DNA of 64,000 bases, taken from Acidovorax sp. (GTDB lineage: Bacteria; Pseudomonadota; Gammaproteobacteria; Burkholderiales; Burkholderiaceae_C). Location of the stretch: assembly GCF_021287135.1 (NCBI RefSeq), contig NZ_JAJTBB010000013.1:1-64000 (forward strand), written 5' to 3'. Below the pieces are notes generated by a model. That model made no database searches. It was not told the origin of the DNA and worked only from the letters and a program-made list of their open reading frames with translations. Shown piece after piece: positions 36,172 to 52,351 of this stretch. The first letter of the stretch is position 1; each line of letters starts with the position of its first letter. A program made the position numbers and the translations under genes.

Positions 36172-36198
36172 GGGCTGTAAACAGCCGTAAAATCCCAC

Positions 36199-36412
36199 TG
36201 TTGGTGCTCGCGGTGTGGTTCACATGCTGCAGTTCAACGGGAAGCAGGGAGGCCTCGCCCACCAGGGCCGGCCCAGCCTGCGCTGCCCCCGCAACGGTCA
36301 GCGGACGAGTCCTTGCGACTCTCTCTCCAACCACAAGCCACTGAGTGCCTTGAACAAGCGCTTGGGAAGGCGTTGGAGGGCGTTCCGCCAGCCCGGATAC
36401 CGGCCAACACGG
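36199..36412 (+). promoter_or_regulatory. Cobalamin riboswitch upstream of btuB
   Basis: Conserved blocks occur in the right order: GCTGCCCCCGCAACGGT (about 36282-36298), AAGCCACTG (36335-36343), TTGGGAAGG (36362-36370) and the B12 box AGCCCGGATACCGGCC (36390-36405). It lies about 95 bp before btuB. A -10-like TAAAAT is at 36188-36193. Binding of cobalamin is expected to repress btuB and the following genes. The outer limits are approximate. Confidence 0.92.
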
Positions 36413-36507
36413 TGGTCGCTTGCGCTTCTTGGAGGAAGCGGCTCGCGGCTGTATCACCCACATGCTGGCGGGAGGCCGGCCCGGGTTGTTTGTTGACGTT
36501 GATTCCC

Positions 36508-38391
36508 ATGACATTCCGTACCCTTCGCGCGCGTTCCGCTGCGCGGCTGTGCCCGGCTGCACCGCGCCTGGCCCTGTTGGCCCTGGCGGCCGGCAGCGCT
36601 TGCAGCGCCTTGGCGCAGGCCGCGCCCGCCGGCGGCGAACTGCTGGCGCAGAACCTGCGCACGCCTTCGCTGGCCGAAACCGTGGTGGCTGCCACCCGCA
36701 GCCCGCAGCCGCTGACCGATCTGGTGGCCGACATTTCCGTGGTGGACCGCGAAACCATCGAGAGCAGCGGCGCCACCGGCCTGGCCGACCTGCTGGGCCG
36801 TCTGCCCGGTGTGGAGTTTGCGCGCAATGGCGGGCCTGGCACGACCACGAGCGTTTATCTGCGCGGCGCGGAGTCGCGCTTCACGGCGGTGTTCATCGAC
36901 GGCGTGCGGGTGGATTCGCAGTCCACCGGTGGTGCGCCGTGGGAGAGCATTCCGCTGGGCCTGATCGACCGCATCGAAGTGCTGCGCGGCCCCGCGGGCG
37001 CGGTGTACGGGTCTGACGCGCTGGGCGGCGTGGTGCAGATCTTCACCAAGCGTGGCGAGAAGGGCACCGCCCCCTACGTGGGCGCAGGCGTGGGCAGCCA
37101 CGGCACGACCAAGGTGGAGGCCGGTATCAGCGGCGCCAGCGGCACGGTGGACTACGCGCTGGGCCTGGAGCGCGAGAACAGCACGGGCTTCAACGCCCGC
37201 ACGGTGTCCACGCAGAACCCCGACCGCGACGGCTACCGCTCCACGGCGGGCCACGCCCGCGTGGGCCTGCAACTGAACGCCGTGCACCGGCTCGAAGGCA
37301 CGCTGATGGTGAACGACACCAACAGCGGCTACGACAACGGCCTGGGCAAGGACGACCGCAGCCTGCACCAGATGCACGCGCTGGGCCTGAACTGGAGCGC
37401 GCAGTGGAGCAGCGCCTACAAGACGCGCCTGTCCATCACCGACTCGCGCGATGAGTACGAAACGCGGCCATCGCCGTACCTGAGCGACACCCGCCTGCGC
37501 GGCTACTACTTCCAGAACGAATGGCGGCAGGGGCCGCACCTCGTGACGGCCGCGCTGGAACGCCGCGAAGACCGCCTGGAGAACGCGCCCATCGACGCCA
37601 AGCGTTCGCAGGACGCCGTGGCCCTGGGCTATGGCTACAACGCGGCCGGGCATACGGTGCAGCTCAATGTGCGGCATGACTCCGACAGCGAATTCGGCGG
37701 CAAGACCACCGGCAGCGTGGCCTACGGTTACGCGATCACGCCGCAGTGGCGGGCCACGGCCTCGGTGGGCACGGGCTTTCGCGCGCCCACGCTGTACCAC
37801 CGCTTCAGCGAGTACGGCGTGGCCACGCTGCGCCCCGAAAGCAGCCGCAATGCCGAGGTGGCGCTGCGCTACGCACAGGGCAGCAGCACCTTCTCGGCAA
37901 CGCTGTTCCGCAACCGGCTGACCAACCTCATCTCGTTTGCCGGGCCGGGCACCTGCGCCTCGGAATTCGGCTGCTACGCCAACACCGCGCGGGCCGAATA
38001 CCAGGGCGTGACCTTCGCGGGATCGCACCGCCTGGGCGACGTCACGCTGCACGGCTCCATCGACCTGCAGCGCCCGCGCGACCTGGACACCGGCAAGCAG
38101 CTGGCGCGCCGCGCCAAGCGCCACGCCACGCTGGGCGCCGACACCCGCTGGGCGGGCTGGACGCTGGGCGCCGAAGTGCAGGCCTCGGCCCGCCGCTTCG
38201 ACACCGCGGCCAACACCAACGTGCTGGGCGGCTACACCCTGCTCAACCTGTACGCCAGCACCCGCATCGCCCGCGACACCACGCTGCTCGCGCGCATCGA
38301 CAACGTGGCCGACAAGGACTACCAGCTCGCGCGCACCTATGCCACCGCGGGCCGCACGGTATACGTCGGAATCAAGTGGGCACCCCAATGA
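36508..38391 (+). CDS. btuB: TonB-dependent cobalamin receptor BtuB-like
   Basis: A 627-residue outer-membrane receptor. Residues 1-36 form a signal peptide (cleavage near ALAQA). The plug has ETVVAATRSPQPLTDLVADISVVD (a degenerate TonB box at its start) and IEVLRGPAGAVYGSDALGGVVQIFTK. The barrel ends in ARTYATAGRTVYVGIKWAPQ-like strands; Trp rather than Phe is near the terminus. A cobalamin riboswitch upstream and cob/btu genes downstream indicate corrinoid uptake. An R3 repeat follows the stop. Confidence 0.93.
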   Translation: MTFRTLRARSAARLCPAAPRLALLALAAGSACSALAQAAPAGGELLAQNLRTPSLAETVVAATRSPQPLTDLVADISVVDRETIESSGATGLADLLGRLPGVEFARNGGPGTTTSVYLRGAESRFTAVFIDGVRVDSQSTGGAPWESIPLGLIDRIEVLRGPAGAVYGSDALGGVVQIFTKRGEKGTAPYVGAGVGSHGTTKVEAGISGASGTVDYALGLERENSTGFNARTVSTQNPDRDGYRSTAGHARVGLQLNAVHRLEGTLMVNDTNSGYDNGLGKDDRSLHQMHALGLNWSAQWSSAYKTRLSITDSRDEYETRPSPYLSDTRLRGYYFQNEWRQGPHLVTAALERREDRLENAPIDAKRSQDAVALGYGYNAAGHTVQLNVRHDSDSEFGGKTTGSVAYGYAITPQWRATASVGTGFRAPTLYHRFSEYGVATLRPESSRNAEVALRYAQGSSTFSATLFRNRLTNLISFAGPGTCASEFGCYANTARAEYQGVTFAGSHRLGDVTLHGSIDLQRPRDLDTGKQLARRAKRHATLGADTRWAGWTLGAEVQASARRFDTAANTNVLGGYTLLNLYASTRIARDTTLLARIDNVADKDYQLARTYATAGRTVYVGIKWAPQ

Positions 38392-38396
38392 CGCCC

Positions 38397-38505
38397 CCCC
38401 TGAGGCGCTGCGCGCCTTCTCCCCACGGGGGGACGCCACCCGTGGCCTGGCGGAGCCAGTTCCACGGTGGCACTGGTTTCGTGCGTGCCAGTTTCATCGG
38501 CATGC
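38397..38505 (+). repeat. R3 intra-operon repeat, copy 2
   Basis: Directly after btuB. It begins CCCCCTGAGGCGCTGCGCGCC and includes GCCAGTTCCACGGTGGCACTGGT, nearly the same as copy 1 after the TctC gene. It is strongly self-complementary and lies between the receptor gene and cobB. Confidence 0.75.
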
Positions 38506-38533
38506 TGGGCATGTGTTCCCCGGGGTTGCTGAA

Positions 38534-39880
38534 ATGACCAGGTGCCCCGCGTTGCTGATCGCAGCCCCGGCCTCGGGGCAGGGCAAGACCACTGTCACTG
38601 CGGCTCTGGCGCGCCTGCATGCGCGCCAGGGGCGGCGGGTGCAGGTGTTCAAGTGCGGACCGGATTTTCTGGACCCGCACTGGCACCAGCTGGCCAGCGG
38701 CGCGGCCGTGCACCAGCTTGACCTGTGGATGAATGGCGAGGCCGACTGCGCCCAGCGGCTGCACGCCGCGGCGCAGGCATGCGACCTGATCCTGATCGAG
38801 GGCGTCATGGGGCTGTTTGACGGCACCCCCAGCGCTGCCGACCTGGCGCAGCGCTTTGGCGTGCCGGTGCTGGCGGTGGCCGATGCCTCGGCCATGGCCG
38901 GCACCTTCGGGGCGCTGGCGTTTGGGCTGCGCCACTACCGCCCGGGCCTGCCCTGGGCGGGCATCCTGGCCAACCGCGTGGGCAGTGCGCGCCATGCCGA
39001 CATGCTGCGCGAAGGCCTGCAAGACCCGTCCGACTGGATGGGCGCGCTGCTGCGCGTCGCGCCGGGGGGCGGCGCTGCGGGCGCTGCCTTGCTGCCGGAG
39101 CGGCACCTGGGCCTGGTGGCCGCGCACGAGCTGCAGGACAGCCTGCAGCGGCTGGATGCCGCCGCCGACGCGCTGGAGGCCACGCCGCTGGGCCAGATGA
39201 CCGCCGGCGACTTGCAGCGCTGGGCGGTGGATTTCGCCGCGCCGGCCCAGACCGCACCGGTGCCGCCGCTGCTGGCGGGCCGCACGGTGGCGGTCGCACG
39301 CGATGCGGCGTTCTGCTTTGTTTACGCCGCCAACCTGCAGTGCCTGGAGCAGATGGGTGCGCGGGTGGTGCTTTTCTCGCCGCTGCACGATGCGGCGCTG
39401 CCGCCCTGCGACGCCGTGTGGCTGCCCGGCGGCTACCCCGAGCTGCACACGGCGCAGATCGCGGCGAACACCGGCCTGCAGGCCAGCCTGCGTGCGCACG
39501 TGGCCGCCGGCCGGCCCCTGTGGGCCGAGTGCGGCGGGATGATGGCGCTGTTTGACTCCATCACCCTGGCCGATGGCGCCGTGGCGCCGCTGTGGGGGCT
39601 GCTGCCGGGCCGCGTGACCCTGCACAAGCGCCTGGCGGCCCTGGGGCCGCAGCAGCTGACCGTGGCGGGCCACACGCTGCGCGGCCACACGTTTCACTAT
39701 TCGACCAGCGACAGCAGCGCCCCCGTGGTGGCTCGCACGGCACGACCCAACGAGGCCGTGTCGCCCGACGCGGGCGAGGCGCTGTACCGCCAAGGCAGTC
39801 TGCACGCCAGCTACTTTCACGCGTGGTTCCCCTCCAGCCCCGAGGCCGTGGCGTACTTGCTGGGCGGGGCCCCACCATGA
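38534..39880 (+). CDS. cobB: Cobyrinate a,c-diamide synthase
   Basis: A 448-residue ATP- and glutamine-dependent amidase acting on the a and c carboxylates of (hydrogeno)cobyrinate. The N-terminal P-loop domain starts LLIAAPASGQGKTTVTAALA, with KCGPDFLDPHWH and IEGVMGLFDG. The C-terminal glutaminase-like domain has WLPGGYPELH and the nucleophile region WAECGGMM (Cys). HASYFHAWFPSSP carries the catalytic His. The CbiA/CobB order and length are normal. The ATG at 38534 is 142 bp after btuB, with an R3 repeat between. Its stop overlaps cobU. Confidence 0.95.
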   Translation: MTRCPALLIAAPASGQGKTTVTAALARLHARQGRRVQVFKCGPDFLDPHWHQLASGAAVHQLDLWMNGEADCAQRLHAAAQACDLILIEGVMGLFDGTPSAADLAQRFGVPVLAVADASAMAGTFGALAFGLRHYRPGLPWAGILANRVGSARHADMLREGLQDPSDWMGALLRVAPGGGAAGAALLPERHLGLVAAHELQDSLQRLDAAADALEATPLGQMTAGDLQRWAVDFAAPAQTAPVPPLLAGRTVAVARDAAFCFVYAANLQCLEQMGARVVLFSPLHDAALPPCDAVWLPGGYPELHTAQIAANTGLQASLRAHVAAGRPLWAECGGMMALFDSITLADGAVAPLWGLLPGRVTLHKRLAALGPQQLTVAGHTLRGHTFHYSTSDSSAPVVARTARPNEAVSPDAGEALYRQGSLHASYFHAWFPSSPEAVAYLLGGAPP

Positions 39881-40470
39881 CAGCGGCTGTGCCCTCCATC
39901 ACCACCGAACTGATCCTGGGTGGCCAGAAAAGCGGCAAGTCACGCCGCGCCGAACTGCTGGCGCGCGACTGGCTGGCGCAGTCGGCCGATCACCGCGCGG
40001 TGTTGATTGCCACCGGAGAGGCCTGGGACGACGAGATGCGCGCGCGCATCGCCCGCCACCAGCGCGACCGGGCCGAGCGCGTGCCCGGCCTGCAGACGGT
40101 GGAGGAGCCGCACGACGTGGCCGCAGCGCTCACGCGGCTCGGCGCGCCGCAGACCTTGCTGGTGGTGGACTGCCTCACACTGTGGCTCACCCACTGGACC
40201 ATGCCCCTGGGTGTGGAAGCCATGAGTTTTGAACAAAAACAGGCCCTGGCCCTTGACTGGCAAGCGCAAGCAGCTATGTTTTTGGAAGCAGTTCGGAAAT
40301 CCCCCGGGCCCGTTGTTCTGGTGGGCAACGAAATCGGCCTGGGGGTCATCCCGATGGGGCGCGAGGTGCGGGCCTTCGTGGATGCGCTGGGCACCCTCAA
40401 CCAGCAGGTGGCCCAGGTGTGCCCCCGCGTCACGCTGATGGCCGCCGGCCTGCCCCTCAAGCTGAAATGA
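39877..40470 (+). CDS. cobU: Adenosylcobinamide kinase/guanylyltransferase
   Basis: A 197-residue bifunctional enzyme that phosphorylates adenosylcobinamide and transfers GMP to it. The P-loop is GGQKSGKSRRAE (residues about 15-26). EEPHDVAAAL, LLVVDCLTLWL and VLVGNEIGLGVIPMGREVRAF are conserved. Residues about 121-137 (ALALDWQAQAAMFLEAV) coincide with an R2 repeat in frame, in a helix region where the family tolerates change. ATG 39877 overlaps the cobB stop (ATGA). Confidence 0.94.
   Translation: MTAAVPSITTELILGGQKSGKSRRAELLARDWLAQSADHRAVLIATGEAWDDEMRARIARHQRDRAERVPGLQTVEEPHDVAAALTRLGAPQTLLVVDCLTLWLTHWTMPLGVEAMSFEQKQALALDWQAQAAMFLEAVRKSPGPVVLVGNEIGLGVIPMGREVRAFVDALGTLNQQVAQVCPRVTLMAAGLPLKLK
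40237..40286 (+). repeat. R2 repeat, copy d, inside cobU
   Basis: Aligns with the 3' part of the R2 element: CTTGACTGGCAAGCGCAAGC then AGCTATGTTTTTGG. The first hairpin is degraded. It is read in frame within cobU. Confidence 0.6.
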
Positions 40471-40657: not shown

Positions 40658-41560
40658 ATGAAACCAACCCCCGTGCGCCGCATCCTGTGGGTGATCGCCA
40701 TCCTGGTGCTGCTGGGCTTGCTCATGGCCGGGCTGGCGCGTGCGCAACCTGTGCATATTCGGGATGACAAGGGCCGCGAGGTCTCGCTGCCCCGCCCCCC
40801 GCAGCGCATCGTGAGTCTGCTGCCGTCGCTGGCCGAGAGCGTGTGCGCGCTGGAGCAGTGCCATCGCCTGGTGGGGGTGGACCGCTATTCCAACTGGCCC
40901 GAGGATGTGGTCGGCAAGCTGCCCAAGGTGGGAGGCGGGCTGGACCCCAGCATCGAGGCCATCGTCGCGCTCAAGCCCGACGTGGTGCTGATGTCCGTCA
41001 GCTCGCGCGCCAGCGACCGGCTGGAGGCGCTGGGCCTCACCGTGGTGCAGCTGGAGCCCAAGACCCATGCCGACGTGCGCCGCGTGCTGGGCGTTCTGAG
41101 CGATCTGCTGGGCGTCCCCCGTGCGCAAGGGGCCGACCGCCTTTGGCGCGTGATCGACGCGGGGGTGCTGGCGGCGGCGCAGTCCCTGCCGCCCCGGGCC
41201 CGCAATGCGCGGGTGTATTTCGAGGTCAGCCGCGGGCCATACGCCGCGGGCGAGGCGTCGTTCATCGGCGAGACGCTTACCCGGCTGGGCGTGCGCAACG
41301 TGGTGCCCGCATCGCTCGGCCCGTTTCCGCGCCTGAACCCCGAGTTCATCGTGCGCGCCAACCCCGACATCATCATGATCGGCAACCGCAGCATGCAGGC
41401 CATGGTGCCGTACCCCGGCTGGGCCACGATGCGCGCCATCCGCGAAAACCGGCTGTGCGTGTTCGGCCCGGGTGATTCGGACGTGGTGGTGCGCCCTGGG
41501 CCGCGCATGGCAGAGGCGGCTCGCCTCATGGCACGGTGTCTTTCGGACAAGGCTTCATGA
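40658..41560 (+). CDS. btuF: Periplasmic corrinoid-binding protein BtuF-like
   Basis: A 300-residue helical-backbone metal receptor. Residues 1-29 are a signal peptide ending LARAQ. The mature protein has RIVSLLPSLAESVCALE, typical of BtuF, then VGVDRYSNWPEDV and LKPDVVLMS. FSNLGVRNVV-type sequence appears as LTRLGVRNVVPASLG. It delivers corrinoid to BtuCD. The gene follows the R3 repeat after cobU, and its stop overlaps btuC (ATGA). Confidence 0.93.
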   Translation: MKPTPVRRILWVIAILVLLGLLMAGLARAQPVHIRDDKGREVSLPRPPQRIVSLLPSLAESVCALEQCHRLVGVDRYSNWPEDVVGKLPKVGGGLDPSIEAIVALKPDVVLMSVSSRASDRLEALGLTVVQLEPKTHADVRRVLGVLSDLLGVPRAQGADRLWRVIDAGVLAAAQSLPPRARNARVYFEVSRGPYAAGEASFIGETLTRLGVRNVVPASLGPFPRLNPEFIVRANPDIIMIGNRSMQAMVPYPGWATMRAIRENRLCVFGPGDSDVVVRPGPRMAEAARLMARCLSDKAS

Positions 41561-42591
41561 CCGGCGTATCCATCGATTTGCCCACGGGGTCGGCGCGTCG
41601 CCGCGCGGCCTGGTGTGCGGCGTGGCTGCTGCTGGCCAGCGCTGTGCTGACCGTGTGCGGCGCCAGCGTGGGCAGCACGGGTTTTGACAGCGTGCTGCGC
41701 ATGCACGGCGACCCGGTGGCCTGGCAGATCGTGTGGGACATCCGCCTGCCGCGCACGCTGGGCGCCTGGCTGGCGGGCGCGCTGCTGGGCCTGTCGGGCG
41801 CGGTGGCGCAGGGGCTGTTTCGCAACCCGCTGGCCGACCCGTACCTGCTGGGCAGCGCCTCGGGCGCTGCGCTGGGCGGGGCGGTGGCCATGGCGCTGTT
41901 CGGCGTGTCGCCGGTGGCGGCGCAGTGGCTGGCGCGCATCGGCATCACGGGCATGGCTTTTTTGGGCGCGGCGGGCGCCGTGGTGCTCACGCTCATCCTG
42001 GCTCGGGGCGTGCAGCACACGCTGCGCCTGCTGCTGGCAGGCGTGATCGTGGGCGTGGTGCTGGGGGCGCTGCGCGACCTGGTGGAGCTGGCCTCGCCCG
42101 ACATCCTGCAGGCCATGCAGGCTTTTACGCTGGGCAGCACCGCCTTCGCCGGCTGGGCCGCCTGCGCAATGATGGCCGGTGCGCTGGCGCTGTGCATGCT
42201 GGTGGCGTGGATGCTGGCGCGCGCGCTGGACGGCCTCACGCTGGGCGAGTCCACCGCTGCCAGCCTGGGCTTGCCGCTGGCGCCCATGCGCGCCGGCCTG
42301 GTGGCGGCCATGGCGCTGGCTACCGGCACGGCCGTGGCGCAGACGGGGCTGATCGCCTTTGTGGGCCTGGCCGCGCCGCACCTGGTGCGCTCCATCGTGC
42401 GCGTGACGCACGAGCGGCACATCGTGCTCGCCAGCCTCATGGGCGCGGTGCTGCTGCTGGCGGCCGACATCCTGGCGCGCTGGGTGCTGGCGCCGCAGGA
42501 GCTGCCGGTGGGCGTGCTCACGGCCGCGCTGGGCGGAACCTACCTGCTGTGGCTCATGCACCGCCGCAGCGCGCAGGGGGGCTCACTATGA
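41557..42591 (+). CDS. btuC: Corrinoid ABC transporter permease BtuC-like
   Basis: A 344-residue FecCD-family permease with about ten helices. DIRLPRTLGAWLAGALLGLSGAVAQGLFRNPLADP is the family signature (read as two parts: RLPRTLGAWLAGALLGLSG and AQGLFRNPLADPYLLG). FVGLAAPHLVR near residue 270 contacts the ATPase. ATG 41557 inside the btuF stop was preferred over an upstream in-frame start. Its stop overlaps btuD. Confidence 0.94.
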   Translation: MTGVSIDLPTGSARRRAAWCAAWLLLASAVLTVCGASVGSTGFDSVLRMHGDPVAWQIVWDIRLPRTLGAWLAGALLGLSGAVAQGLFRNPLADPYLLGSASGAALGGAVAMALFGVSPVAAQWLARIGITGMAFLGAAGAVVLTLILARGVQHTLRLLLAGVIVGVVLGALRDLVELASPDILQAMQAFTLGSTAFAGWAACAMMAGALALCMLVAWMLARALDGLTLGESTAASLGLPLAPMRAGLVAAMALATGTAVAQTGLIAFVGLAAPHLVRSIVRVTHERHIVLASLMGAVLLLAADILARWVLAPQELPVGVLTAALGGTYLLWLMHRRSAQGGSL

Positions 42592-43412
42592 ATTCCATAG
42601 CTGTCCGCGCTTGCCAGATCAGCGTCAGCATCGGAAATCGCCCCATACTGCAGGCCGTCGACCTGGCGCTGCCGGCCGGGCGCTGGACCTGCATCGTCGG
42701 CCCCAACGGGGCGGGCAAGTCCACGCTGCTCAAGGCGCTGGCCGGGCTGCTGCCCCGCGCCGTAGTCCAGGGCGAGGTGCAGCTGTTCGGCCGCCCGCTG
42801 GCGCAGCTACCCGCGCGCGAACGCGCCCGGCAGCTGGCCTGGCTGGGGCAGAACGAAGGCTCGCCCGACGACCTGTCCAGCTACGACGTGGCCTTGCTGG
42901 GCCGCCTGCCGCACCAGCCCTGGCTGGCCCCGCCCAGTGCCGCCGACCACGCCGCGGTGGAGCAGGCGCTGCGTGCCACGCAGGCCTGGGACTGGCGCGA
43001 CCGCCCGCTGTCGCAGCTCTCAGGCGGCGAGCGCCAGCGGGTGCTGCTGGCGCGGGCGCTGGCCGTGCAGGCGCCGCTGCTGCTCATGGACGAGCCCCTG
43101 GCCAACCTCGACCCGCCGCACCAGACCGACTGGCTGCACACCGTGCGGGCGCTGGTGGAGGCCGGCGGCACCGTGGTCAGCGTGCTCCACGAGGTGTCGC
43201 TGGCGCTGCAGGCCGACGAACTGGTGGTGATGGCCGGCGGCCGCGTGCTGCACCAGGGCGCCAGCGACGCAGCGGCCACGCACGCCGCGCTGGAGCAGGT
43301 GTTTGACCACCGCATCCGGGTGCGGCATCTCGACGGCCTGTGGATGGCGCTGCCCAGCCTGCAGCCGAGCCGCCCCTTTTCCGAAGGAAAGAATGAACAC
43401 CATGCAGATTGA
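42588..43412 (+). CDS. btuD: Corrinoid ABC transporter ATPase BtuD-like
   Basis: A 274-residue FecE/BtuD-type ATPase. Walker A is GPNGAGKST (residues about 38-46), the signature [15 protein letters not shown], and Walker [13 protein letters not shown]. The switch His is in [11 protein letters not shown]. The first dozen residues ([15 protein letters not shown]) are encoded by an inverted R2 repeat, so the N-terminus may have been recruited from it. ATG 42588 overlaps the btuC stop, and the C-terminus overlaps cobO by 20 bp. Confidence 0.94.
42591..42624 (-). repeat. R2 repeat, copy h, at the start of btuD
   Basis: ATAGCTGTCCGCGCTTGCCA and AGATCAGCG align with the reverse complement of copy b (ATAGCTGTCTGCGCTTGTCC). 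It is short and partly degraded, and is read in frame from the second codon of btuD. Confidence 0.55.
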
Positions 43413-44058
43413 AACCCCACCCACCGAAAAGCGCTATGAAAAAGCCGAGGGCGAGCGCCGGGGCATCGTCATCGTCAACACCGGCGACGGCAAGGGCAAG
43501 AGCACGGCCGCCTTTGGTCTGGCGCTGCGCGCGCACGGCCGGGGCAAGGCCGTCAAGATCTTCCAGTTCATGAAAGTGCCCACTGCGCGCTTTGGCGAGC
43601 ACCGCGCGTTCGAGCAGCTGGAGGCCTTCCGGACGGCGCCGGGCCGCCCCAAGCCGGACGACGGCCCCCTTGGGGGGCAGGGCGCTACACGCAGTGAGCA
43701 ACCGTGGGGGCCCATCATCGAGGGGCTGGGCGATGGCTTCAGCTGGAAGAGCAAGGACCTCGACCACTCCGCGCAGCTGGCCCGCGAAGGCTGGGAGAAG
43801 GCGCGCGCCGCCATCCTCTCGGGCGATTATTTCCTGGTGGTGCTCGACGAAATCACCTACCCGCTGATCTACGGCTGGCTGCCCCTGGAGGGCGTGCTGC
43901 AGACCCTGCGCGAGCGGCCCAAGGAGGTGCATGTGTGCCTCACCGGCCGCCGCTGCCCGCCCGAGATCATTGAACTGGCGGACACCGTGACCGAGATGCA
44001 GATGGTCAAGCACGCGTTCAAGGCGGGCATTCCCGCGCAGCGCGGCATCGAGGACTGA
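43393..44058 (+). CDS. cobO: Corrinoid adenosyltransferase with an extra internal segment
   Basis: A 221-residue CobA/BtuR/CobO-type enzyme transferring adenosyl from ATP to Co(I) corrinoid. The P-loop [14 protein letters not shown] lies at residues 29-42. [22 protein letters not shown] follows, and the conserved [16 protein letters not shown] resumes at about residue 111. Between them, residues about 77-107 (Gly/Pro-rich, with [16 protein letters not shown]) look like an insertion: the usual protein goes directly from FEQL to the G(E/D)GF segment and is about 190-200 residues. [13 protein letters not shown] and [10 protein letters not shown] are intact, so the enzyme is probably active. GGAAAG precedes ATG 43393. 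Confidence 0.92.
43635..43715 (+). repeat. GC-rich repeat-like insertion inside cobO
   Basis: The stretch holds GGCCGCCCCAAGCCGGACG, CCCCCTTGGGGGGC (a near-perfect palindrome) and ACGCAGTGAGCAACCGTGGG. It resembles GC-rich interspersed elements of Comamonadaceae that normally lie between genes. It adds about 31 codons in frame. Assignment to a repeat family is from memory of the style of such elements, not from a search. Confidence 0.6.
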
Positions 44059-44105: not shown

Positions 44106-45110
44106 ATGGCTGAGCCCGGGTTCGCGTCCCTGCTGAGCGGCGGCGGCTGGCCTGCCGCGCTGGGGTGGATGGCCGCGCCGTTGCTGGCCCTGCTGGTGGA
44201 CCGATGGTTGGGCGAGCCGCCCGCGCCCCTGCACCCCGTGGTGTGGATGGGGCGGGCGCTGCAGCGGGTGGGAGACCGGCTGGCGCCCCAGATCCCTGTG
44301 GCGCAGGATTTCAAGCGTTTTTGGCTTGCAGCGCTTGCCTGGTGTGCGCTGGCAGCTATTGTTTTGATAGTGTCCCTGGCGGTGCAGCAGTTGGCGTGGA
44401 GGCTGTTGCCGCCGGCCGTGGCCGGGCTGGCCGTGGGCGTGCTGCTCAAGCCGCTGTTGGCCTGGCGCATGCTGCGCGATGAAGTGCTGGCGGTGGAGGT
44501 GGCGCTGGGCCAGTCGCTGCCCGCCGGCCGAGCCCAGCTGGCGCGGCTGGTGAGCCGGGACGTGAGTGCACTCAGCGCGGTGCAGGTGCGCGAGTCGGCC
44601 GTCGAGTCGCTGGCCGAGAACCTCAACGACTCCGTGGTGGCGCCGCTCTTCTGGTTCGCGCTGCTGGGCCTGCCGGGCGCGGCGCTCTACCGCTTTGCCA
44701 ACACCGCAGACGCGATGTGGGGCTACCCCGGTATGCGGGGCGGGCGGTACTGGCAGTGGGCGGGCAAATGGGCGGCCCGGGCGGACGATGTGCTGTCGTG
44801 GGTGCCGGCGCGCATCACGGCAGCCCTGGTGGCGCTGGTGGCCGGCGGCGTAAGGCTGCGTGCCTTGGTGCGCCAGGCCCGCAAGACGCCGTCGCCCAAC
44901 AGCGGCTGGCCCATGGCGGCCATGGCGCTGGCGCTGGGGGTGCGGTTGGGCAAGCCGGGCGTGTACACATTGCACGGGCACGGGCGGCGCGCCGGCCCGC
45001 TGGATGTGCGGCGGGCGGCCCGCATCGGCCAGGCGGTGGTGGTGGCGTGCGTGCCGCTCATGGCGCTGCTGCAGGGGCTGGTGTGGTGGATGGAAGGGAA
45101 ATTTGCATGA
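44106..45110 (+). CDS. cbiB: Adenosylcobinamide-phosphate synthase CbiB
   Basis: A 334-residue inner-membrane enzyme that joins aminopropanol phosphate to adenosylcobyrate. Conserved segments are DRWLGEPPAPLHPVVWMG, SRDVSALSAVQVRESAVESLAENLNDSVVAPLFW and RFANTADAMWGY (shown in parts of one region). About four hydrophobic helices are visible. Residues about 75-89, in the first long helix (AALAWCALAAIVLIV), coincide with an R2 repeat in frame. It starts 47 bp after cobO and overlaps the next gene by 4 bp. Confidence 0.94.
   Translation: MAEPGFASLLSGGGWPAALGWMAAPLLALLVDRWLGEPPAPLHPVVWMGRALQRVGDRLAPQIPVAQDFKRFWLAALAWCALAAIVLIVSLAVQQLAWRLLPPAVAGLAVGVLLKPLLAWRMLRDEVLAVEVALGQSLPAGRAQLARLVSRDVSALSAVQVRESAVESLAENLNDSVVAPLFWFALLGLPGAALYRFANTADAMWGYPGMRGGRYWQWAGKWAARADDVLSWVPARITAALVALVAGGVRLRALVRQARKTPSPNSGWPMAAMALALGVRLGKPGVYTLHGHGRRAGPLDVRRAARIGQAVVVACVPLMALLQGLVWWMEGKFA
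44326..44374 (+). repeat. R2 repeat, copy e, inside cbiB
   Basis: CAGCGC and GCGCTG form hairpin 1 around TTGCCTGGTGT. AGCTATT-GTTTT-GATAG(T) forms hairpin 2 with a G-T-type mismatch. Both halves of the element are present, and it encodes part of a transmembrane helix in frame. Confidence 0.78.
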
Positions 45111-46192
45111 CGGCAGGGAACCCGAGCCCGGAAACAGGATGGAACGCCGTGCATGGCGGGCCGGACGCGCTGGGCGTGCCGGTGCACGACTTTTCCACCA
45201 ACAGCAACGCTGCCGGGCCCTGCGAGGAAGCCTTGCACGCGGTGCAGTCGGCGGACCCGCGGCACTACCCCGACCCGGGCTACGCGGCGCTTCGCGAGGC
45301 CCTGGGGGCGTTCCATGGCGTGGCACCGGACCGGGTGGTACTGGCTGCCAGCGCCAGCGAGTTCATCCACCGCGTGACCGCGCTGGCGGCCCAGCAGGGG
45401 GCGCGGCACGTGGCCGTGCCCTTGCACGGTTTTGGCGAATACGCGCGGGCGGCGCAGGCGCGGGGGCTGGCCGTGGAGCGGCTGCGGGCGGACTCCCCCG
45501 CGCCCCTGCAATGGGCCTGCGAGCCGTCCAGCCCGTTGGGCCAGGGTGAACCCGTGGTGCGCACCTGGGCTGCGGCCGCCCCGGCTGCGGCGCCCGCGTG
45601 GCGGGTGGTGGACTGTGCCTATGTGCCGTTGCGCCTGGATGCCGCGGCCCCGTGGTCGGCCGCGCTGGTGGCCCACGGGGCGGACTGCTGGCAGCTGTGG
45701 ACGCCCAACAAGGCGCTGGGCATGACGGGCGTGCGCGCGGCCTACGCCATCGCGCCGGCGGGCGGCGATGCCCAGGTGCAGGCGCTGGACGCGCTGGCGC
45801 CCGCGTGGCCGGTGGGCGCGCACGGCGTGGCGCTGCTGCAGGCCTGGGTGCGGCCCAGCGTGCAGCGGTGGCGGGTGTACAGCCTGGACACCCTGCGCAG
45901 CTGGAAGGCGCGCCAGGAGGCGCTGTGCATCGACCTGGGCTGGTCGGTCCACGCCGGCAGCCTGGCCAACTATTTCTGTGCCCAGCCCGACACGGCCGGT
46001 GACCTGTCCGCGTTGCAGCAGGCCCTGGCCGCCCTGCGGCGCAGCGGCATCAAGCTGCGGGACTGCACCTCTTTTGGCCTGGCCGGATCGGTGCGCCTGG
46101 GCGTGCTGCCGCCGGCCGCGCAAGATGCGCTGCGCGCCGCCTGGAACGCCCTGCCGCGCGAGCACCGTACCATGCCCGTCCCATCTGCATGA
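45107..46192 (+). CDS. cobD: L-threonine-O-3-phosphate decarboxylase-like aminotransferase
   Basis: A 361-residue fold-type I PLP enzyme (CobD of Salmonella, CobC of Pseudomonas). VHDFSTNSNAAGPCEEAL replaces the usual D(F/L)S-xx-NPxGP region. HYPDPGYAALREALGAFHG and LAASASEFIHRV follow. The PLP Lys is probably in LWTPNKALGMTGVRAAYA. The C-terminus has LGVLPPAAQDALRAAW. It should make (R)-1-aminopropan-2-yl phosphate for CbiB. NSNAAGP instead of NPLGP is a deviation near the active site. ATGA overlap on both sides couples it to cbiB and the HipA-like gene. Confidence 0.88.
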   Translation: MTAGNPSPETGWNAVHGGPDALGVPVHDFSTNSNAAGPCEEALHAVQSADPRHYPDPGYAALREALGAFHGVAPDRVVLAASASEFIHRVTALAAQQGARHVAVPLHGFGEYARAAQARGLAVERLRADSPAPLQWACEPSSPLGQGEPVVRTWAAAAPAAAPAWRVVDCAYVPLRLDAAAPWSAALVAHGADCWQLWTPNKALGMTGVRAAYAIAPAGGDAQVQALDALAPAWPVGAHGVALLQAWVRPSVQRWRVYSLDTLRSWKARQEALCIDLGWSVHAGSLANYFCAQPDTAGDLSALQQALAALRRSGIKLRDCTSFGLAGSVRLGVLPPAAQDALRAAWNALPREHRTMPVPSA

Positions 46193-47001
46193 AAGACATC
46201 CCTGTGGTGCGAACTGTCCAAATCACCCGCTACGTCACGCCGCTGCGCGAGGGCGGCTCCATGCCCGCGGTGGTCGAAGCCGACGACCTGGGCCTTTACG
46301 TGCTCAAGTTCCGCGGGGCGGGGCAGGGCGTGCGCGCGCTGCTGGCCGAGATGATTGCGGGCGGCATCGCCCGCGCCCTCGGCCTGCCCGTGCCCGAGAT
46401 CGTGCTCGCGCAGCTGGACCCGATGCTCGCGCAGACCGAGCCCGACCCCGAGATCCAGGACCTGGTCCGCGCCAGCGGCGGCCTCAACGTGGGGCTGGAC
46501 TACCTGTCGGGCGCGCTCAACTTCGACCCGGCGGTGGACGTGGTGTCTGCCGATTTCGCCTCGCGCCTGGTGTGGTTCGATGCGCTGGTCGGCAATGTGG
46601 ACCGCACCGCCCGCAACACCAACCTGCTGGTGTGGCACCGCCAGCCCTGGCTGATCGACCACGGCGCGGCGCTCACCTTCCACCATGCGTGGAACGGCGC
46701 CGTCGCCCAGCCGGCCAAGCCCTTCGCGCCCATTGCCGAGCATGTGCTGCTGGGGCAGGCCACGGCGCTGGCCGCGGTGGACGCCGAGCTGGCCGCCCGC
46801 CTCACGCCCGAAGTGGTCGCGGCCATCCTGGCCGAGGTGCCCGACGAGTTCCTGGCCCTGGCAGGCGCCGACCACGCGGAAGGGCCGCTGTCGGCCCCGG
46901 CAAGCCACCGCCAGGCCTACGGGGACTACTTCTGCGCACGGCTGGCCGGGCGCACAACCTGGGTGCATGCGTTGCAGGAGGCCGCCAATGCACGCGCCTG
47001 A
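46189..47001 (+). CDS. HipA-like kinase-fold protein (HipA_2 type)
   Basis: A 270-residue protein of the short HipA-related family. The N-terminal lobe has ADDLGLYVLKFRGAGQG, with a Lys likely to bind phosphate, and LLAEMIAGGIARALGLPVPE. The catalytic loop is WFDALVGNVDRTARNTNLLV, with the Asp of NVDRTxRN acting as base. The metal-binding segment is WLIDHGAALTFHH. It lacks the HipB antitoxin partner and the N-terminal domain of E. coli HipA. Its start overlaps cobD (ATGA) and its end overlaps the DUF3037 gene by 14 bp. A Ser/Thr or small-molecule kinase role is inferred; its link to cobalamin is unknown. Confidence 0.82.
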   Translation: MKDIPVVRTVQITRYVTPLREGGSMPAVVEADDLGLYVLKFRGAGQGVRALLAEMIAGGIARALGLPVPEIVLAQLDPMLAQTEPDPEIQDLVRASGGLNVGLDYLSGALNFDPAVDVVSADFASRLVWFDALVGNVDRTARNTNLLVWHRQPWLIDHGAALTFHHAWNGAVAQPAKPFAPIAEHVLLGQATALAAVDAELAARLTPEVVAAILAEVPDEFLALAGADHAEGPLSAPASHRQAYGDYFCARLAGRTTWVHALQEAANARA

Positions 47002-47380
47002 GATTTACGACTACGCCATCGTGCGCGTGGTGCCGCGCGTGGAGCGCGAAGAGTTCATCAACGCGGGCGCCATCGTCTCGTGCCAGCGCACGGGCTTTCT
47101 GCAGGCCGCCATGGCGCTGGACGAAGCACGCCTGCGGGCGCTGGACCCCCATGCCGACCTCGACACCGTGCGCCGCCACCTGGGCGCCATCGTGGCCATC
47201 TGCGCGGGCGAGCCGGGTTGCGGGCCGATTGCGCAGCTGCCGTACCGCGCGCGCTTCCACTGGCTCACGGCGCGGCGCAGCGGCGTCATCCAGACCTCGC
47301 CCGTGCACACGGGCCGCTGCACCGATGCTGCGGCGGCGCTCGAACACATCCTGGACCGCATGGTCCGTCCCTTGCCATGA
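46988..47380 (+). CDS. DUF3037 family protein
   Basis: A 130-residue soluble protein. It opens YDYAIVRVVPRVEREEFINAGAIV, the DUF3037 signature, then LDPHADLDTVRRHLGAIVAIC and ends RSGVIQTSPVHTGRCTDAAAALEHILDRMV. DUF3037 genes are regularly found next to HipA_2-type genes, so the two probably act together. The function is unknown. It overlaps the HipA-like gene by 14 bp and cobQ by 4 bp (ATGA), placing it fully within the cobalamin operon. Confidence 0.85.
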   Translation: MHAPEIYDYAIVRVVPRVEREEFINAGAIVSCQRTGFLQAAMALDEARLRALDPHADLDTVRRHLGAIVAICAGEPGCGPIAQLPYRARFHWLTARRSGVIQTSPVHTGRCTDAAAALEHILDRMVRPLP

Positions 47381-48867
47381 CCGCGAAGACTTCTCCGCCG
47401 CTGGCCCGCTGCGTGATGGTGCTGGGCACCACCAGCGGCGCCGGCAAGAGCTGGCTCACCACTGCGCTGTGCCGCTACTACAGCAACCAGGGCCTGAAGG
47501 TGGCGCCCTTCAAGGCGCAGAACATGAGCAACAACGCGCGCGTGGTGCCCGCCCCCGGCAGTGCACTGGGCGAGATCGGCAGCGCCCAGTACTTCCAGGC
47601 CCTGGCCGCGCGCGCCACGCCCGAGGTGCGCATGAACCCCCTGCTGCTCAAGCCCGAGGCCGACACCCGAAGCCAGGTGGTGCTGATGGGCCAGGTGCAT
47701 GCCGAGCTGACGGCGCTGCCCTGGCGCGGCCGCAGCGAGCGCGTCTGGCCGCAGATCGCCGCCGCGCTGGACGCGCTGCGTGCCGAGAACGAGGTGGTGG
47801 TGATCGAGGGCGCAGGCTCGCCCGCCGAGATCAACCTGCACGCCAGCGACATCGTGAACATGCGCGTGGCGCGCCATGCGCAGGCCCGCTGCCTGCTCGT
47901 CACCGACATCGATCGGGGCGGTGCGTTTGCCCACCTCTACGGCACCTGGGCGCTGCTGCCCGAGGACGAACGCGCGCTCATCCAGGGCTTTGTGCTCAAC
48001 AAGTTCCGGGGCGATGCCAGCCTGCTCGCACCCGCACCGCAGATGCTGCAGGAGCTGACGGGTGTGCCCACCGTGGCCACCATCCCCACGCAGTGGCACC
48101 ACGGCCTGCCCGAGGAGGATGGCGTCTTTGACGACCGCAGCATGGCGGCCGGCGCGGTGCACACCACGGTCGCAGTCATCGCCTACCCGCGCATCAGCAA
48201 CCTGGACGAGTTCCAGCCGCTCAAGAACGTGCCCGGCGTGCGCCTGCTGTGGGTGCGCAGCCCCGCCGATGTGGCGGGCCTGCGGCCCAGCGACTGGATC
48301 GTGCTGCCCGGCTCGAAGGCCACCGCCGCCGACCTGGCCTGGCTGCGCGCCCAAGGCCTGGACCAGGCCATTGCCCGCCACGCGGGGCAGGGCGGCACCG
48401 TGCTGGGCGTGTGTGGAGGCCTGCAGATGCTGGGCGAAGCGCTGATTGACACGGCGGGCATCGACGGCAATGCGCCGGGCCTGGGCCTGCTGCCGCTGGT
48501 CACCGTGTTCGAGCCCGCCAAGACGGTGCGGCGCACCTCGGCGGCGTTCGGGGCGCTTGCAGGTGCCTGGAGTCCGCTCTCGGGCGTGCGCGCCGAGGGT
48601 TATGAAATCCACCACGGCCAGACGGCCCAGCACCCCGCCATGGCCGCCAAGGGCGACGTGGCGCGCGAGATCGTGCCCGGCATCGCCTGGCAGAACCCGG
48701 CGGGCAATGTGCTGGGCGTGTACCTGCACGGTTTGTTCGAGGACGCCGCCGTGCTGCAGGCCCTGTTTGGCGCCCGGGCGCCCACGCTGGACAGCGTGTT
48801 TGACGGCTTGGCGGATGGCGCGGCCCGGCACTTCGCACCGGGCGTGCTGGAGGCGCTCATTGCGTAG
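47377..48867 (+). CDS. cobQ: Cobyric acid synthase
   Basis: A 496-residue ATP/glutamine-dependent amidase acting on the b, d, e and g carboxylates of adenosylcobyrinate diamide. The P-loop domain has VLGTTSGAGKSWLTTALCRY and APFKAQNMSNNA. The glutaminase-like domain has LPGSKATAADL, the nucleophile GVCGGLQMLG and the His region GVYLHGLFED. GYEIHHGQT is also conserved. Length is normal. ATG 47377 lies in the DUF3037 stop. Its own stop codon lies at the edge of an R1 repeat. Confidence 0.96.
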   Translation: MTAKTSPPLARCVMVLGTTSGAGKSWLTTALCRYYSNQGLKVAPFKAQNMSNNARVVPAPGSALGEIGSAQYFQALAARATPEVRMNPLLLKPEADTRSQVVLMGQVHAELTALPWRGRSERVWPQIAAALDALRAENEVVVIEGAGSPAEINLHASDIVNMRVARHAQARCLLVTDIDRGGAFAHLYGTWALLPEDERALIQGFVLNKFRGDASLLAPAPQMLQELTGVPTVATIPTQWHHGLPEEDGVFDDRSMAAGAVHTTVAVIAYPRISNLDEFQPLKNVPGVRLLWVRSPADVAGLRPSDWIVLPGSKATAADLAWLRAQGLDQAIARHAGQGGTVLGVCGGLQMLGEALIDTAGIDGNAPGLGLLPLVTVFEPAKTVRRTSAAFGALAGAWSPLSGVRAEGYEIHHGQTAQHPAMAAKGDVAREIVPGIAWQNPAGNVLGVYLHGLFEDAAVLQALFGARAPTLDSVFDGLADGAARHFAPGVLEALIA

Positions 48868-49031: not shown

Positions 49032-49060
49032 GCACTCTGCAGAGTGCCGGCTGCTATCAT
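49032..49060 (+). promoter_or_regulatory. Palindrome and -10 element before the second riboswitch
   Basis: GCACTCTGCAGAGTGC (49032-49047) is a perfect 16-bp palindrome between the R1 element and the riboswitch. TATCAT at 49055-49060 resembles a -10 box and would start transcription near 49067, next to the first base of the riboswitch closing stem. Confidence 0.55.
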
Positions 49061-49067
49061 CGCGCCC

Positions 49068-49231
49068 CTCAGGTGCCCGCTGCCGCAATGGCAACGGGAG
49101 AATCGGGAAGGCGGTGCAAATCCGCCGCGTGCCCAACGCTGTAAGGACGATGCCGCGCACACATGCCACTGGCTGCCATGCCGGGAAGGCGTGCCGAGGC
49201 AGACGACTCCAAGCCAGAAGACCGGCCTGAG
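49068..49231 (+). promoter_or_regulatory. Cobalamin riboswitch upstream of bluB-cobT
   Basis: A closing stem CTCAGG/CCTGAG (49068-49073 with 49226-49231) frames conserved blocks: AATCGGGAAGGCGGTGCAAA, TCCGCCGCG, AACGCTGTAAGG, GCCACTGGC, GCCGGGAAGGCG and the B12 box AAGCCAGAAGACCGGCC. The bluB start is about 60 bp downstream. Cobalamin is expected to repress bluB and cobT. Confidence 0.95.
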
Positions 49232-49290
49232 CCATTCTTGGCGCTGCAAGGCCGGGCAGCGCTGCCACTATTCAAGCACAGGGGACTGCC

Positions 49291-50052
49291 ATGAATACGC
49301 GCGCAGTGGTGCAATCCGCGCCCAGCGTTCACGCCTTTACGCAAGAGGCGCGCGACGCCGTTTACCACGCGATCTTTTCACGCCGCGATGTACGGGGGCA
49401 ATTTCTGCCCACACCCGTGCCGGACGAGGTTCTGAGCCGCATCCTTACCGCCGCGCACCACGCACCTTCGGTGGGCTTCATGCAGCCCTGGAACTTCCTC
49501 GTGGTGCGCTCGCCAGAGACCAAGCGGCGCGTGCATGGCGCCTTTGCCAAGGCCCACGCCGAAGCTGCCGCCCTGTTCGAGGGCGACAGGCGCGCCGCCT
49601 ACCAAAAGCTCAAGCTCGAAGGCATCGTCGAATCGCCCGTCGGCATCTGCATCACCTGCGACCGCGAGCGCACCGGCCCGGTGGTGGTGGGGCGCACCCA
49701 CATGAAGACCATGGACCTGTACAGCAGCGTCTGCGCCGTGCAAAACCTGTGGCTCGCCGCGCGCGCCGAAGGGCTGGGCGTGGGCTGGGTCAGCATCTTC
49801 CACCAGGCCGACTTGCAAGAGGCGCTGAGCATTCCCCCGCGCATCACGCCCATTGCCTACCTCTGCGTGGGCTACGTCAGTCACTTCCACGCCAGGCCCG
49901 AGTTGGAGACTGCCGGCTGGCTGCCGCGCCTGCCCATGGAGGAGCTTGTGTACTTCGACCAATGGGGCCAGCGCGATGACCTGCAGCCCCTCATTGCCCA
50001 TCTGCAGCGCGACCAGGCCGCTGCCCTGCGCCAGCGGGACGCCATCGCCTGA
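49291..50052 (+). CDS. bluB: 5,6-dimethylbenzimidazole synthase
   Basis: A 253-residue flavin-destructase of the nitroreductase fold that cuts FMN with O2 to give the lower ligand of B12. The first 25 residues precede the core. IFSRRDVRGQFLPTPVPDEVLSRIL and AAHHAPSVGFMQPWNFLVV match BluB. CDRERTGPVVVGRTHMKTMDLYS and SVCAVQNLWLAARAEGLGVGWVSIF are conserved. It is controlled by the upstream cobalamin riboswitch and followed by cobT, which uses its product. Confidence 0.95.
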   Translation: MNTRAVVQSAPSVHAFTQEARDAVYHAIFSRRDVRGQFLPTPVPDEVLSRILTAAHHAPSVGFMQPWNFLVVRSPETKRRVHGAFAKAHAEAAALFEGDRRAAYQKLKLEGIVESPVGICITCDRERTGPVVVGRTHMKTMDLYSSVCAVQNLWLAARAEGLGVGWVSIFHQADLQEALSIPPRITPIAYLCVGYVSHFHARPELETAGWLPRLPMEELVYFDQWGQRDDLQPLIAHLQRDQAAALRQRDAIA

Positions 50053-50135: not shown

Positions 50136-51194
50136 ATGAATACCCCCTTGCCCCAGATTGCCGATATTGCCGACCCGCAACTCATCCAGGCCCTGCAGCA
50201 CAAGCTGGACCACAAGACCAAACCCCTGGGCTCCCTGGGCCTTCTGGAGCGCCTGGCACTGCGCCTGGGGCTGATCCTTGGCTCGGAAGCCCCTGCCTTG
50301 CACGTGCCGCAGATGCTGGTGTGCGCGGGCGACCATGGCCTGGCTGCACGGGGCGTTTCGGCCTTCCCGAGCGATGTGACGTGGCAGATGGTGGAGAACT
50401 TCTTGGCCGGCGGCGCAGCCGTGAGCGTGCTGGCGCGCCAGCACGGCCTGGGCCTCACGGTGGTGGACTGCGGCGTGGCCAAGCCCATTGCCGCGCGCGA
50501 TGCGGCGCCCGGCCAGCCGCGCCTGCTGCTGCGCAAGGTGGCGCCGGGCACGCAGGATGCCTCGGCCGGCCCCGCCATGACCGCCGACCAGTGCGCGCTG
50601 GCGATTGCCAACGGCCTGGAGGTGGTGCGCGGCCTGCCCGGCAACGCACTGCTGCTGGGCGAGATGGGCATCGGCAACACCTCGGTGGCATCGCTGCTGC
50701 TGGCGCGCCTGGCGGGCTTGCCGCTGGCCGAGGTGACGGGCGCCGGCACGGGCCTGGATGCCGCGGGCATTGAGCGCAAGCGGGCCGTGCTGCAGCAGGC
50801 GCTGGATGTCAATGCCGACGCTACCGGCCCGCTGGAGGCGCTGGCCGCGCTGGGCGGCTACGAAGTGGCGACGCTGGTAGGCGCGGTGCTGCAGGCCGCG
50901 GCCGAGCGCCGGGTGATCGTGGTGGATGGCTTCATCACCAGCGCGGCCGTGCTGGTGGCCAGCCGCATCGCCCCGCAGGTGCTGCAGCGCTGCGTGTTTG
51001 CCCACCGCTCGGGCGAGCGGGGCCACAGCCTGATGCTGGCACAGATGCAGGCGGAGCCCCTGCTGGACCTGGGCCTGCGTCTGGGCGAGGGCTCGGGCGC
51101 AGCACTGGCCTGGCCGCTGCTGCAGTCGGCCTGCGCGGTGCTGGCGGAAATGGCGAGCTTTGAGTCGGCCGGCGTGGCCACGGCGTCGGCCTGA
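50136..51194 (+). CDS. cobT: Nicotinate-nucleotide--dimethylbenzimidazole phosphoribosyltransferase
   Basis: A 352-residue enzyme making alpha-ribazole phosphate from dimethylbenzimidazole and nicotinate mononucleotide. DHKTKPLGSLGLLERLALRLG, CAGDHGLAARGVSAFPSDVT and LLGEMGIGNTSVASLLLA are signatures. The catalytic Glu is in LRLGEGSGAALAWPLL. ATG 50136 gives the usual N-terminus. cobS and an alpha-ribazole phosphatase gene do not follow; the next gene is on the other strand. Confidence 0.96.
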   Translation: MNTPLPQIADIADPQLIQALQHKLDHKTKPLGSLGLLERLALRLGLILGSEAPALHVPQMLVCAGDHGLAARGVSAFPSDVTWQMVENFLAGGAAVSVLARQHGLGLTVVDCGVAKPIAARDAAPGQPRLLLRKVAPGTQDASAGPAMTADQCALAIANGLEVVRGLPGNALLLGEMGIGNTSVASLLLARLAGLPLAEVTGAGTGLDAAGIERKRAVLQQALDVNADATGPLEALAALGGYEVATLVGAVLQAAAERRVIVVDGFITSAAVLVASRIAPQVLQRCVFAHRSGERGHSLMLAQMQAEPLLDLGLRLGEGSGAALAWPLLQSACAVLAEMASFESAGVATASA

Positions 51195-51217: not shown

Positions 51218-52351
51218 TCAGGCCACGCAGGTCCGGTTGCGCCCCTGGTCCTTGGCGCGGTACAGGGCCGCATCGGCGCGGGACAGCATGCTGTCCAGCG
51301 TCTCGTGCCTGCCCGTCCAGCTGGTCAGGCCGATGCTGACCTCGCAGTCCAGCGGGTGGCCCGCGGCCAGGGTGGCGTGGATGCGCTGCGCCACCACCAT
51401 GGCGGCTTCGACATCGGCGGACGGTAGCAGCACCAAAAACTCCTCACCGCCGTAGCGCCCCAGCCGGTCGCCGCGCCGCAGCGCCTGCCGCGTGCGCTCG
51501 GCAAAATGCGCCAGCACCGCATCGCCGTGCTGGTGGCCTCCGTGGTCGTTCACGGCCTTGAAGTTGTCCAGATCCACCATCATGATGGACGGGCCGTTGC
51601 CGTGGCGCCGTGCGCGTTCCAGCTCGTCCTCGCAGTGCTCCAGCAGCGCGCGCCGGTTCAGCGTCTGGGTGAGGGAGTCGTGGGTGGCCAGGTGTTCCAG
51701 TTCGGTGCGCAGCCGGTCGGTGGCCATCAGGACGGCACCGATGGAGAGCATCAGCACCGTGAGCACGTAGGCGCCGATGTAGAGCGTCTGAAACAGCGAG
51801 GGCTCCATCAGGTGCTCGCCCGCATGGCCGGACAGGATGGAGGCGAGCCGCATGGCCAGCACGCCCATGTGCAGCACCAGCACCACCTCCACCATGCGCA
51901 CCGGAAAGCCGTTGCCGCCGTGGCGCAGCATGAAGCGAAGCTGTGCGCCGTAGATGGCGCCCATGACCAGCGTGAAGAAGCCCACCCGCAGCGCATAGTG
52001 GGGCAGCCAGTAGGTGAGGAGGGTGAACACCACCGTGGTAGCCACCATGACGGCGTTCCACAGGCGCCACGGAGTGGGCTGGCCCATGAAGCGGCGGGTG
52101 CCCATGTAGTACACCACCGTGCCCAGCACCAGCAGCTGGTTGGCCAGGATCAGGCTGAGCCAGTCGGGCACAAAGCCGCGCGTGCCAAACAGCACGGTGG
52201 AGACCAGCCACAGCACGGGCGCAGCCGCCCACGCGCCCACGCCGTGGATCCACGGCGGGTAATGGCGCCGCATGAACAGCAAGACCACTGCCATGACGGC
52301 CGACATGAATCCCGCCATCGCGATCAACGAGCGTGGGTCGAGGTTCGTCAT
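51218..52351 (-). CDS. Membrane-bound diguanylate cyclase
   Basis: A 377-residue protein. The N-terminal 200 residues hold about six transmembrane helices (for example LIAMAGFMSAVMAVVLLFM and LSLILANQLLVLGTVVYYM) and no recognised ligand domain. The GGDEF domain follows a short linker: HDSLTQTLNRRAL, MMVDLDNFKAVNDHGGHQHGD and active site RYGGEEFLVLLP. An RxxD inhibitory site is not obvious before GGEEF. It should make cyclic-di-GMP in response to an unknown membrane signal. ATG 52351 was chosen; the frame runs further upstream through the operator region without coding character. Confidence 0.9.
   Translation of the reverse strand: MTNLDPRSLIAMAGFMSAVMAVVLLFMRRHYPPWIHGVGAWAAAPVLWLVSTVLFGTRGFVPDWLSLILANQLLVLGTVVYYMGTRRFMGQPTPWRLWNAVMVATTVVFTLLTYWLPHYALRVGFFTLVMGAIYGAQLRFMLRHGGNGFPVRMVEVVLVLHMGVLAMRLASILSGHAGEHLMEPSLFQTLYIGAYVLTVLMLSIGAVLMATDRLRTELEHLATHDSLTQTLNRRALLEHCEDELERARRHGNGPSIMMVDLDNFKAVNDHGGHQHGDAVLAHFAERTRQALRRGDRLGRYGGEEFLVLLPSADVEAAMVVAQRIHATLAAGHPLDCEVSIGLTSWTGRHETLDSMLSRADAALYRAKDQGRNRTCVA

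Follow-up and report, generated by a model that had tools for sequence, protein, structure and literature searches.

What is a protein kinase gene doing in the middle of a vitamin B12 operon? The question arises in a stretch of 64,000 nucleotides from Acidovorax sp. (NCBI RefSeq assembly GCF_021287135.1, contig NZ_JAJTBB010000013.1, positions 1 to 64,000 of the forward strand; hereafter, the window), in which a HipA_2/CtkA-fold kinase of 270 amino acids (aa; 46189..47001) and a DUF3037 protein of 130 aa (46988..47380) are encoded between a threonine-phosphate decarboxylase gene (cobC, 45107..46192) and the cobyric acid synthase gene cobQ (47377..48867), all on the plus strand. A preliminary description of this DNA, which called the decarboxylase gene cobD after the Salmonella naming, had offered three possibilities: a kinase acting on a corrinoid precursor or enzyme, a control module expressed when cobalamin is scarce, or a chance passenger. 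To us the pair looks like a long-settled guest with a job of its own, rather than a B12 enzyme, since the cob cluster exists without the pair in close relatives and the pair exists without the cluster in other bacteria.

The kinase matched the Pfam family HipA_2 (PF20613) over residues 16-163 with 56.9 bits against a gathering cut-off of 27, and in a scan with E values up to 1 this was its sole match, with no hit to a GHMP kinase family. Residues K40, E54, D138, N143 and D157-H158-G159 were invariant in an alignment of 41 sequences; K40, E54, D138, N143 and D157 are those that we take to fill the catalytic roles of HipA, and the active site thus appears intact, as the preliminary description had read it. 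The predicted structure has a kinase fold whose nearest neighbors are protein and lipid kinases, and the start codon lies 5-7 residues later in several relatives. The DUF3037 protein matched PF11236 with 149 bits (cut-off 22.6), is of a short form without C-terminal extension, has a predicted structure with a predicted local distance difference test (pLDDT) score of 93.2, and is encoded by the only DUF3037 gene of the window's genome. Kinase and DUF3037 were always paired in the loci read, in agreement with the earlier remark that DUF3037 regularly accompanies such proteins. Also as described before, no HipB gene adjoins the kinase, the immediate neighbors of the pair being cobC and, on the DUF3037 side, cobQ.

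The open reading frame coordinates agree with the gene overlaps noted previously, which lock the pair into the operon: 4 base pairs (bp) between decarboxylase (end 46192) and kinase (start 46189), 14 bp between kinase (end 47001) and DUF3037 (start 46988), and 4 bp between DUF3037 (end 47380) and cobQ (start 47377). A strong GGAGG is found upstream of the DUF3037 start (Shine-Dalgarno score -10.3). The transport and cob gene run that holds the pair is headed by a cobalamin riboswitch at 36185..36422 (plus strand; Rfam RF00174, 74.7 bits, cut-off 31.5) and continues unbroken on the same strand to 48867, so that the sequence would place the pair in a cobalamin riboswitch regulon. No internal promoter or terminator signals above chance level were found. 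A second cobalamin riboswitch (49054..49244, plus strand; RF00174, 113.1 bits), which precedes bluB-cobT, lies on the other side, and the pair therefore sits between two of these elements.

The cob linkage is old and is common to sister species and genera. Of 47 Acidovorax genomes, 35 have the kinase, and four of these (G012, G022, G024 and G038) were left out of the locus reading. In all 31 close-type loci of the genus (L002-L031 and L088, one per genome) the kinase adjoins cobC and/or cobQ, which argues that the linkage is not due to chance. All 16 named Comamonadaceae loci, from Acidovorax, Paracidovorax, Comamonas, Ottowia and Oryzisolibacter, likewise have the pair beside cob genes, so the recurrence between cob genes elsewhere, which the preliminary description had raised as a question, is borne out. 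These named loci were gathered by matching short peptide patterns from the DUF3037 protein of the window, which biases the sample toward close relatives, and they overlap other genomes (for example, L032 = L013 and L053 = L101), so that the loci are not all independent. Gene calls in relatives' loci used a simple codon score, cob genes were sought by tblastn with the window's proteins only, and a call of not cob-linked applies to flanks of approximately 5-10 kb, shorter at contig ends. In the wider family, 51 of 300 genomes had a kinase match: identity was at least 70% in 21, 57-69% in 19 and 31-38% in 11, and two of the 51 carried an additional distant second copy. Close loci outside the genus were cob-linked in 14 of 16 cases, while none of the 19 family loci at 57-69% identity and none of the six named loci of other lineages were.

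A tree of 80 kinases, rooted at its midpoint, grouped the 53 cob-linked rows together and required only two changes: the cob operon was entered once and left once, the latter by L103, which is nested among Comamonas. L096, which is not cob-linked, branches ahead of all cob-linked kinases, and the intermediate loci (57-69% identity) form no single clade. Of 62 cob-clade loci, 60 have the 14 bp overlap of kinase and DUF3037 (the remaining two are one sequence); none of 25 other loci has it, and the overlap there is mostly 23 or 17 bp.

Neither the cob genes nor the pair requires the other. A cobQ match was present in each of the 12 Acidovorax genomes without the kinase, and cbiB, cobC and cobQ are directly consecutive in nine; in L075 cobQ lies approximately 9 kb off. 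Three of the 12 genomes (G007, G033 and G041) are 72-82% complete, but the reading covered the cobC-cobQ junction in all three. In L082 and L083 (genomes G001 and G008) the interval between cobO and cobQ lacks not only the pair but also cbiB and the decarboxylase gene, a gap that looks like the loss of one segment. On the best cobQ tree the presence and absence of the pair required four changes, two of them forced by well supported branches, and the window's own species was placed among species without the pair; repeated loss appears to be the likeliest reading. This was a quick tree in which each locus was represented by its longest single cobQ piece, short pieces included (L022 and L085 cover less than half of the columns). 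The cobQ matches at L087:8168-9666 (G027), L083:11174-13033 (G008) and L085:2057-3341 (G007) fell into separate pieces, which may reflect frameshifts, assembly errors or divergence and were left as such.

Across the family, 232 of 300 genomes had a cobQ match (230 above the cut-off), and 211 genomes with cobQ had no kinase of at least 70% identity. Conversely, no cobQ match was found in eight of the 19 genomes with an intermediate-type pair, the evidence in five of the eight being absence from the match list and not an explicit zero. The escaped pair of L103 (9017-13486, minus strand) belongs to the cob clade and follows amino-acid permease and FAD oxidoreductase genes, with a tandem glycine riboswitch at the head of the run; it is outside the cob region and approximately 460 kb from cobQ. 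Predicted minus-strand genes separate the decarboxylase gene from the kinase gene in L036 and L104, and DUF3037 is separated from cobQ by a short-chain dehydrogenase gene at L034:6754-7515, L036:6699-7370 and L091:10661-11452 (Paracidovorax-like); because of these intervening genes, tight coupling to the cob genes is not universal. The kinase-less Acidovorax genomes, the divergent pairs without a cobQ match and the position of L103 all speak against the corrinoid or threonine kinase role put forward earlier. The preliminary description had also held that pairs elsewhere without cob linkage, combined with the lack of such an insertion in sister species, would point to a passenger. Pairs without cob linkage do exist, but sister species and genera carry the insertion too, so the pair is a maintained resident of long standing and not a recent chance arrival.

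Selection on the two genes resembles that on cobQ. Median ratios of nonsynonymous to synonymous substitution (dN/dS) in cob-linked loci were 0.22 for the kinase, 0.19 for DUF3037, 0.21 for cobQ and 0.38 for the decarboxylase, and kinase distances correlated with cobQ distances at 0.78, a value matched in none of 2000 permutations. This analysis used 48 of the 53 cob-linked tree rows, those with short or incomplete cobQ or cobC being left out. The rates and the correlation reflect purifying selection and largely shared descent.

Pairs without cob linkage occur in other phyla. Outside the cob operon, the pair is found next to genes for uracil-DNA glycosylase, aldolase, CAAX protease, an ABC transporter, an AraC regulator and an AIR-synthase-like protein, among others. 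In the kinase alignment, relatives in Chloroflexota, Myxococcota and Acidobacteriota show 49-58% identity; for Bacteroidota and Actinobacteria the figure is approximately 45-50%. In 396 genomes of the phylum a profile of the short DUF3037 matched with at least 184 bits in 10 and with only 22-41 bits in eight others. Three of these eight (L147, L149 and L152) are of a long type, with DUF3037 proteins of 275-280 aa, in which Pfam found DUF3037 only and no DUF1829, and with kinases scoring 242-249 bits to HipA_2 compared with 57 bits for the window's. The window kinase is 27% identical to one long-type kinase over 153 residues, and pairwise BLAST of the DUF3037 proteins gave no alignment. The window kinase was found in none of 50,697 phage records and in six of 72,556 plasmid records (two mobilizable, none conjugative, one match just 32% identical), whereas a long-type kinase was found in three phages and 22 plasmid records, 15 of the latter mobilizable or conjugative. 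For the Actinobacteria plasmid matches the reading covered the kinase only. In two large Bacteroidota records the pair adjoins a glycoside hydrolase gene, or argH, pyrE and gltA genes; the record with argH, pyrE and gltA looks like chromosomal DNA filed as plasmid. The short DUF3037 type is thus a distinct, slow-evolving branch. A second copy in G027 (L086), at 58% identity, has no cob genes nearby. A lone second HipA_2 gene of that genome (L086:5841-7805) has no DUF3037 match and an altered NPDR catalytic motif. It is flanked on both sides by portions of an IS66 transposase gene, which indicates that kinases of this sort can move with insertion elements.

With moderate confidence, we favor the view that the two genes form a self-contained module, a kinase with a DUF3037 restrainer, which the cob operon acquired a single time, in an ancestor among the Comamonadaceae, and retained. 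The single entry and single escape, the pairing, the intact reading frames, the kinase residues and fold, the purifying selection and the absence from cob-bearing relatives form its basis. The kinase would be a HipA/CtkA-fold serine/threonine protein kinase, bound and checked (or directed) by the small DUF3037 protein, a restraint extrapolated from experiments on longer relatives. The gene overlap would couple translation of the two, DUF3037 with its stronger ribosome site would be made in excess, and the module would do its own job, probably on a protein substrate. The cob operon would serve it as a stable place and a promoter, cobalamin control being perhaps incidental, and the level of the pair in these species should rise under cobalamin scarcity. 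Several points weigh against this view. The tests reported in the literature concern relatives, one of them (DS-6B) with a longer DUF3037 partner, and the identity and alignment results above place the long type far from the window's proteins. In addition, one site has been held across at least five genera, which is unusual for a mere guest, and the strong ribosome site lies within a conserved C-terminal stretch of kinase coding sequence, where constraint on the protein could explain it.

A possible, if unlikely, alternative is that the pair is a phage-defense or abortive-infection toxin-antitoxin module of the HipAD (DS-6, PDC-M66) kind, in which infection frees the kinase from DUF3037 and growth stops. 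HipA/DUF3037 pairs are described as phage-defense or toxin-antitoxin systems in two papers, which report for relatives a kinase toxic without its partner and protection from phage, and give the DS-6B partner as DUF3037 plus DUF1829 (PMC12548924, PMC13092281); the earlier statement that no role is known is, for the families, out of date. The gene order is identical to that of HipAD/DS-6 (DefensePredictor), PADLOC PDC-M66 and the HipA-DUF3037 of Retron-Sda1, a HipA-family kinase followed by an overlapping DUF3037 gene with no HipB, and the overlap is present in long-type loci too. The PADLOC model PDC-M66A matched the window kinase at 1.4e-21 and PDC-M66B matched its DUF3037 at 2.1e-6, at positions 3-65 only of the model's 281, three other short-type proteins reaching at most to 129. 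However, the window's pair belongs to a different branch, with a partner less than half as long and lacking the C-terminal extension, a much weaker HipA_2 score and a lower frequency on plasmids and phages, and its slow evolution, fixed site and mixed metabolic neighbors are unlike a defense island. The locus also differs from HipBA and HipBST, having no HipB or HipS neighbor and a partner from another family. Identity with CtkA of Helicobacter pylori is 17%, and this comparison has no bearing on function.

It is rather improbable, in our estimation, that the pair is a module for cobalamin status, raised by the riboswitch under B12 scarcity, with the kinase then modulating either growth or an enzyme, be it one of the cob pathway or one that depends on B12. 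Such a role would fit the framing by two riboswitches, the translational coupling to cob genes, the site retained in at least five named genera and an evolutionary rate resembling that of cobQ, but not the related species that have the cob genes and lack the pair, the minus-strand genes that split cobC from the kinase in L036 and L104, the L103 pair behind its glycine riboswitch, or the more divergent pairs in genomes without a cobQ match. Less probable again is a B12-gated switch in Comamonadaceae, in which the riboswitch would set the ratio or level of the HipA-type kinase and DUF3037, and B12 shortage would cause a key protein to be phosphorylated, whether a tRNA synthetase, an enzyme of the cob pathway or one that depends on B12, slowing growth or redirecting metabolism.

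In position the kinase resembles PduX or BluE, in that it would act one step before the adjacent decarboxylase encoded in the same operon. Unlike PduX, a member of the GHMP kinase superfamily, it matches HipA_2 alone. GHMP_kinases_N matches numbered one in 45 of the 47 Acidovorax genomes, none in two and never more than one, that of the window's genome being IspE, so a PduX-type enzyme seems to be absent from Acidovorax. A second GHMP match was equally lacking in the nine pair-less Acidovorax genomes with cbiB-cobC-cobQ; the pair therefore does not track the gap, and either another enzyme serves all of these genomes or none is needed. R. capsulatus BluE and Salmonella PduX are proven L-threonine kinases (PMC6249242). 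That the pair's kinase is the missing L-threonine kinase feeding the decarboxylase is very improbable given these genomes, the more divergent pairs without a cobQ match, a DUF3037 partner left unexplained and closest predicted folds that are protein and lipid kinases.

A B12 function is thus mostly unsupported, and the idea of a passenger was mostly right but understated the age and upkeep of the guest. HipA-DUF3037 pairs have just recently been recognized as anti-phage kinase toxins, and the branch described here differs: it is well conserved (kinases approximately 45-60% identical from Burkholderiales to Chloroflexota, Acidobacteriota, Myxococcota, Bacteroidota and Actinobacteria), rare on plasmids and, within a single family, fixed inside a vitamin operon framed by riboswitches. 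The branch suggests that pairs of this kind can serve as ordinary regulators and that defense is one of their uses, and closely related species with and without the pair provide natural comparison sets for this idea. The role of this widespread branch, and whether B12 shortage switches the pair in these species, would repay further work.

The remaining genes of the cobalamin stretch are all on the plus strand. Behind the first riboswitch lie a btuB-like TonB-dependent receptor gene (36577..38391, start by codon score; TIGR01779, 401 bits, below the cut-off of 599.7), cobB for cobyrinate a,c-diamide synthase (38339..39880; NF002204, 405.7 bits, above cut-off; the start may be downstream, at 38639 by codon score) and cobU/cobP (39877..40470; NF004469, 151.2 bits, slightly below the cut-off of 161). 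These are followed by a btuF-like gene (40658-41560), whose family matches are all but one below cut-off, and btuC-like (41536-42591) and btuD-like (42588-43412) genes named from context and translation only. The genes cobO for corrinoid adenosyltransferase (43393..44058; TIGR00708, 190.3 bits) and cbiB for adenosylcobinamide-phosphate synthase (44106..45110; TIGR00380, 218.9 bits) scored above cut-off, as did cobQ (TIGR00313, 406.7 bits), while the best NCBIfam match of the decarboxylase (TIGR01140, 100.5 bits) was below its cut-off of 290.55. Behind the second riboswitch are bluB (49291-50052; TIGR02476, 267.7 bits) and cobT (50136-51194; TIGR03160, 416.5 bits), and beyond these a diguanylate cyclase (GGDEF) gene lies on the minus strand at 51218-52351.
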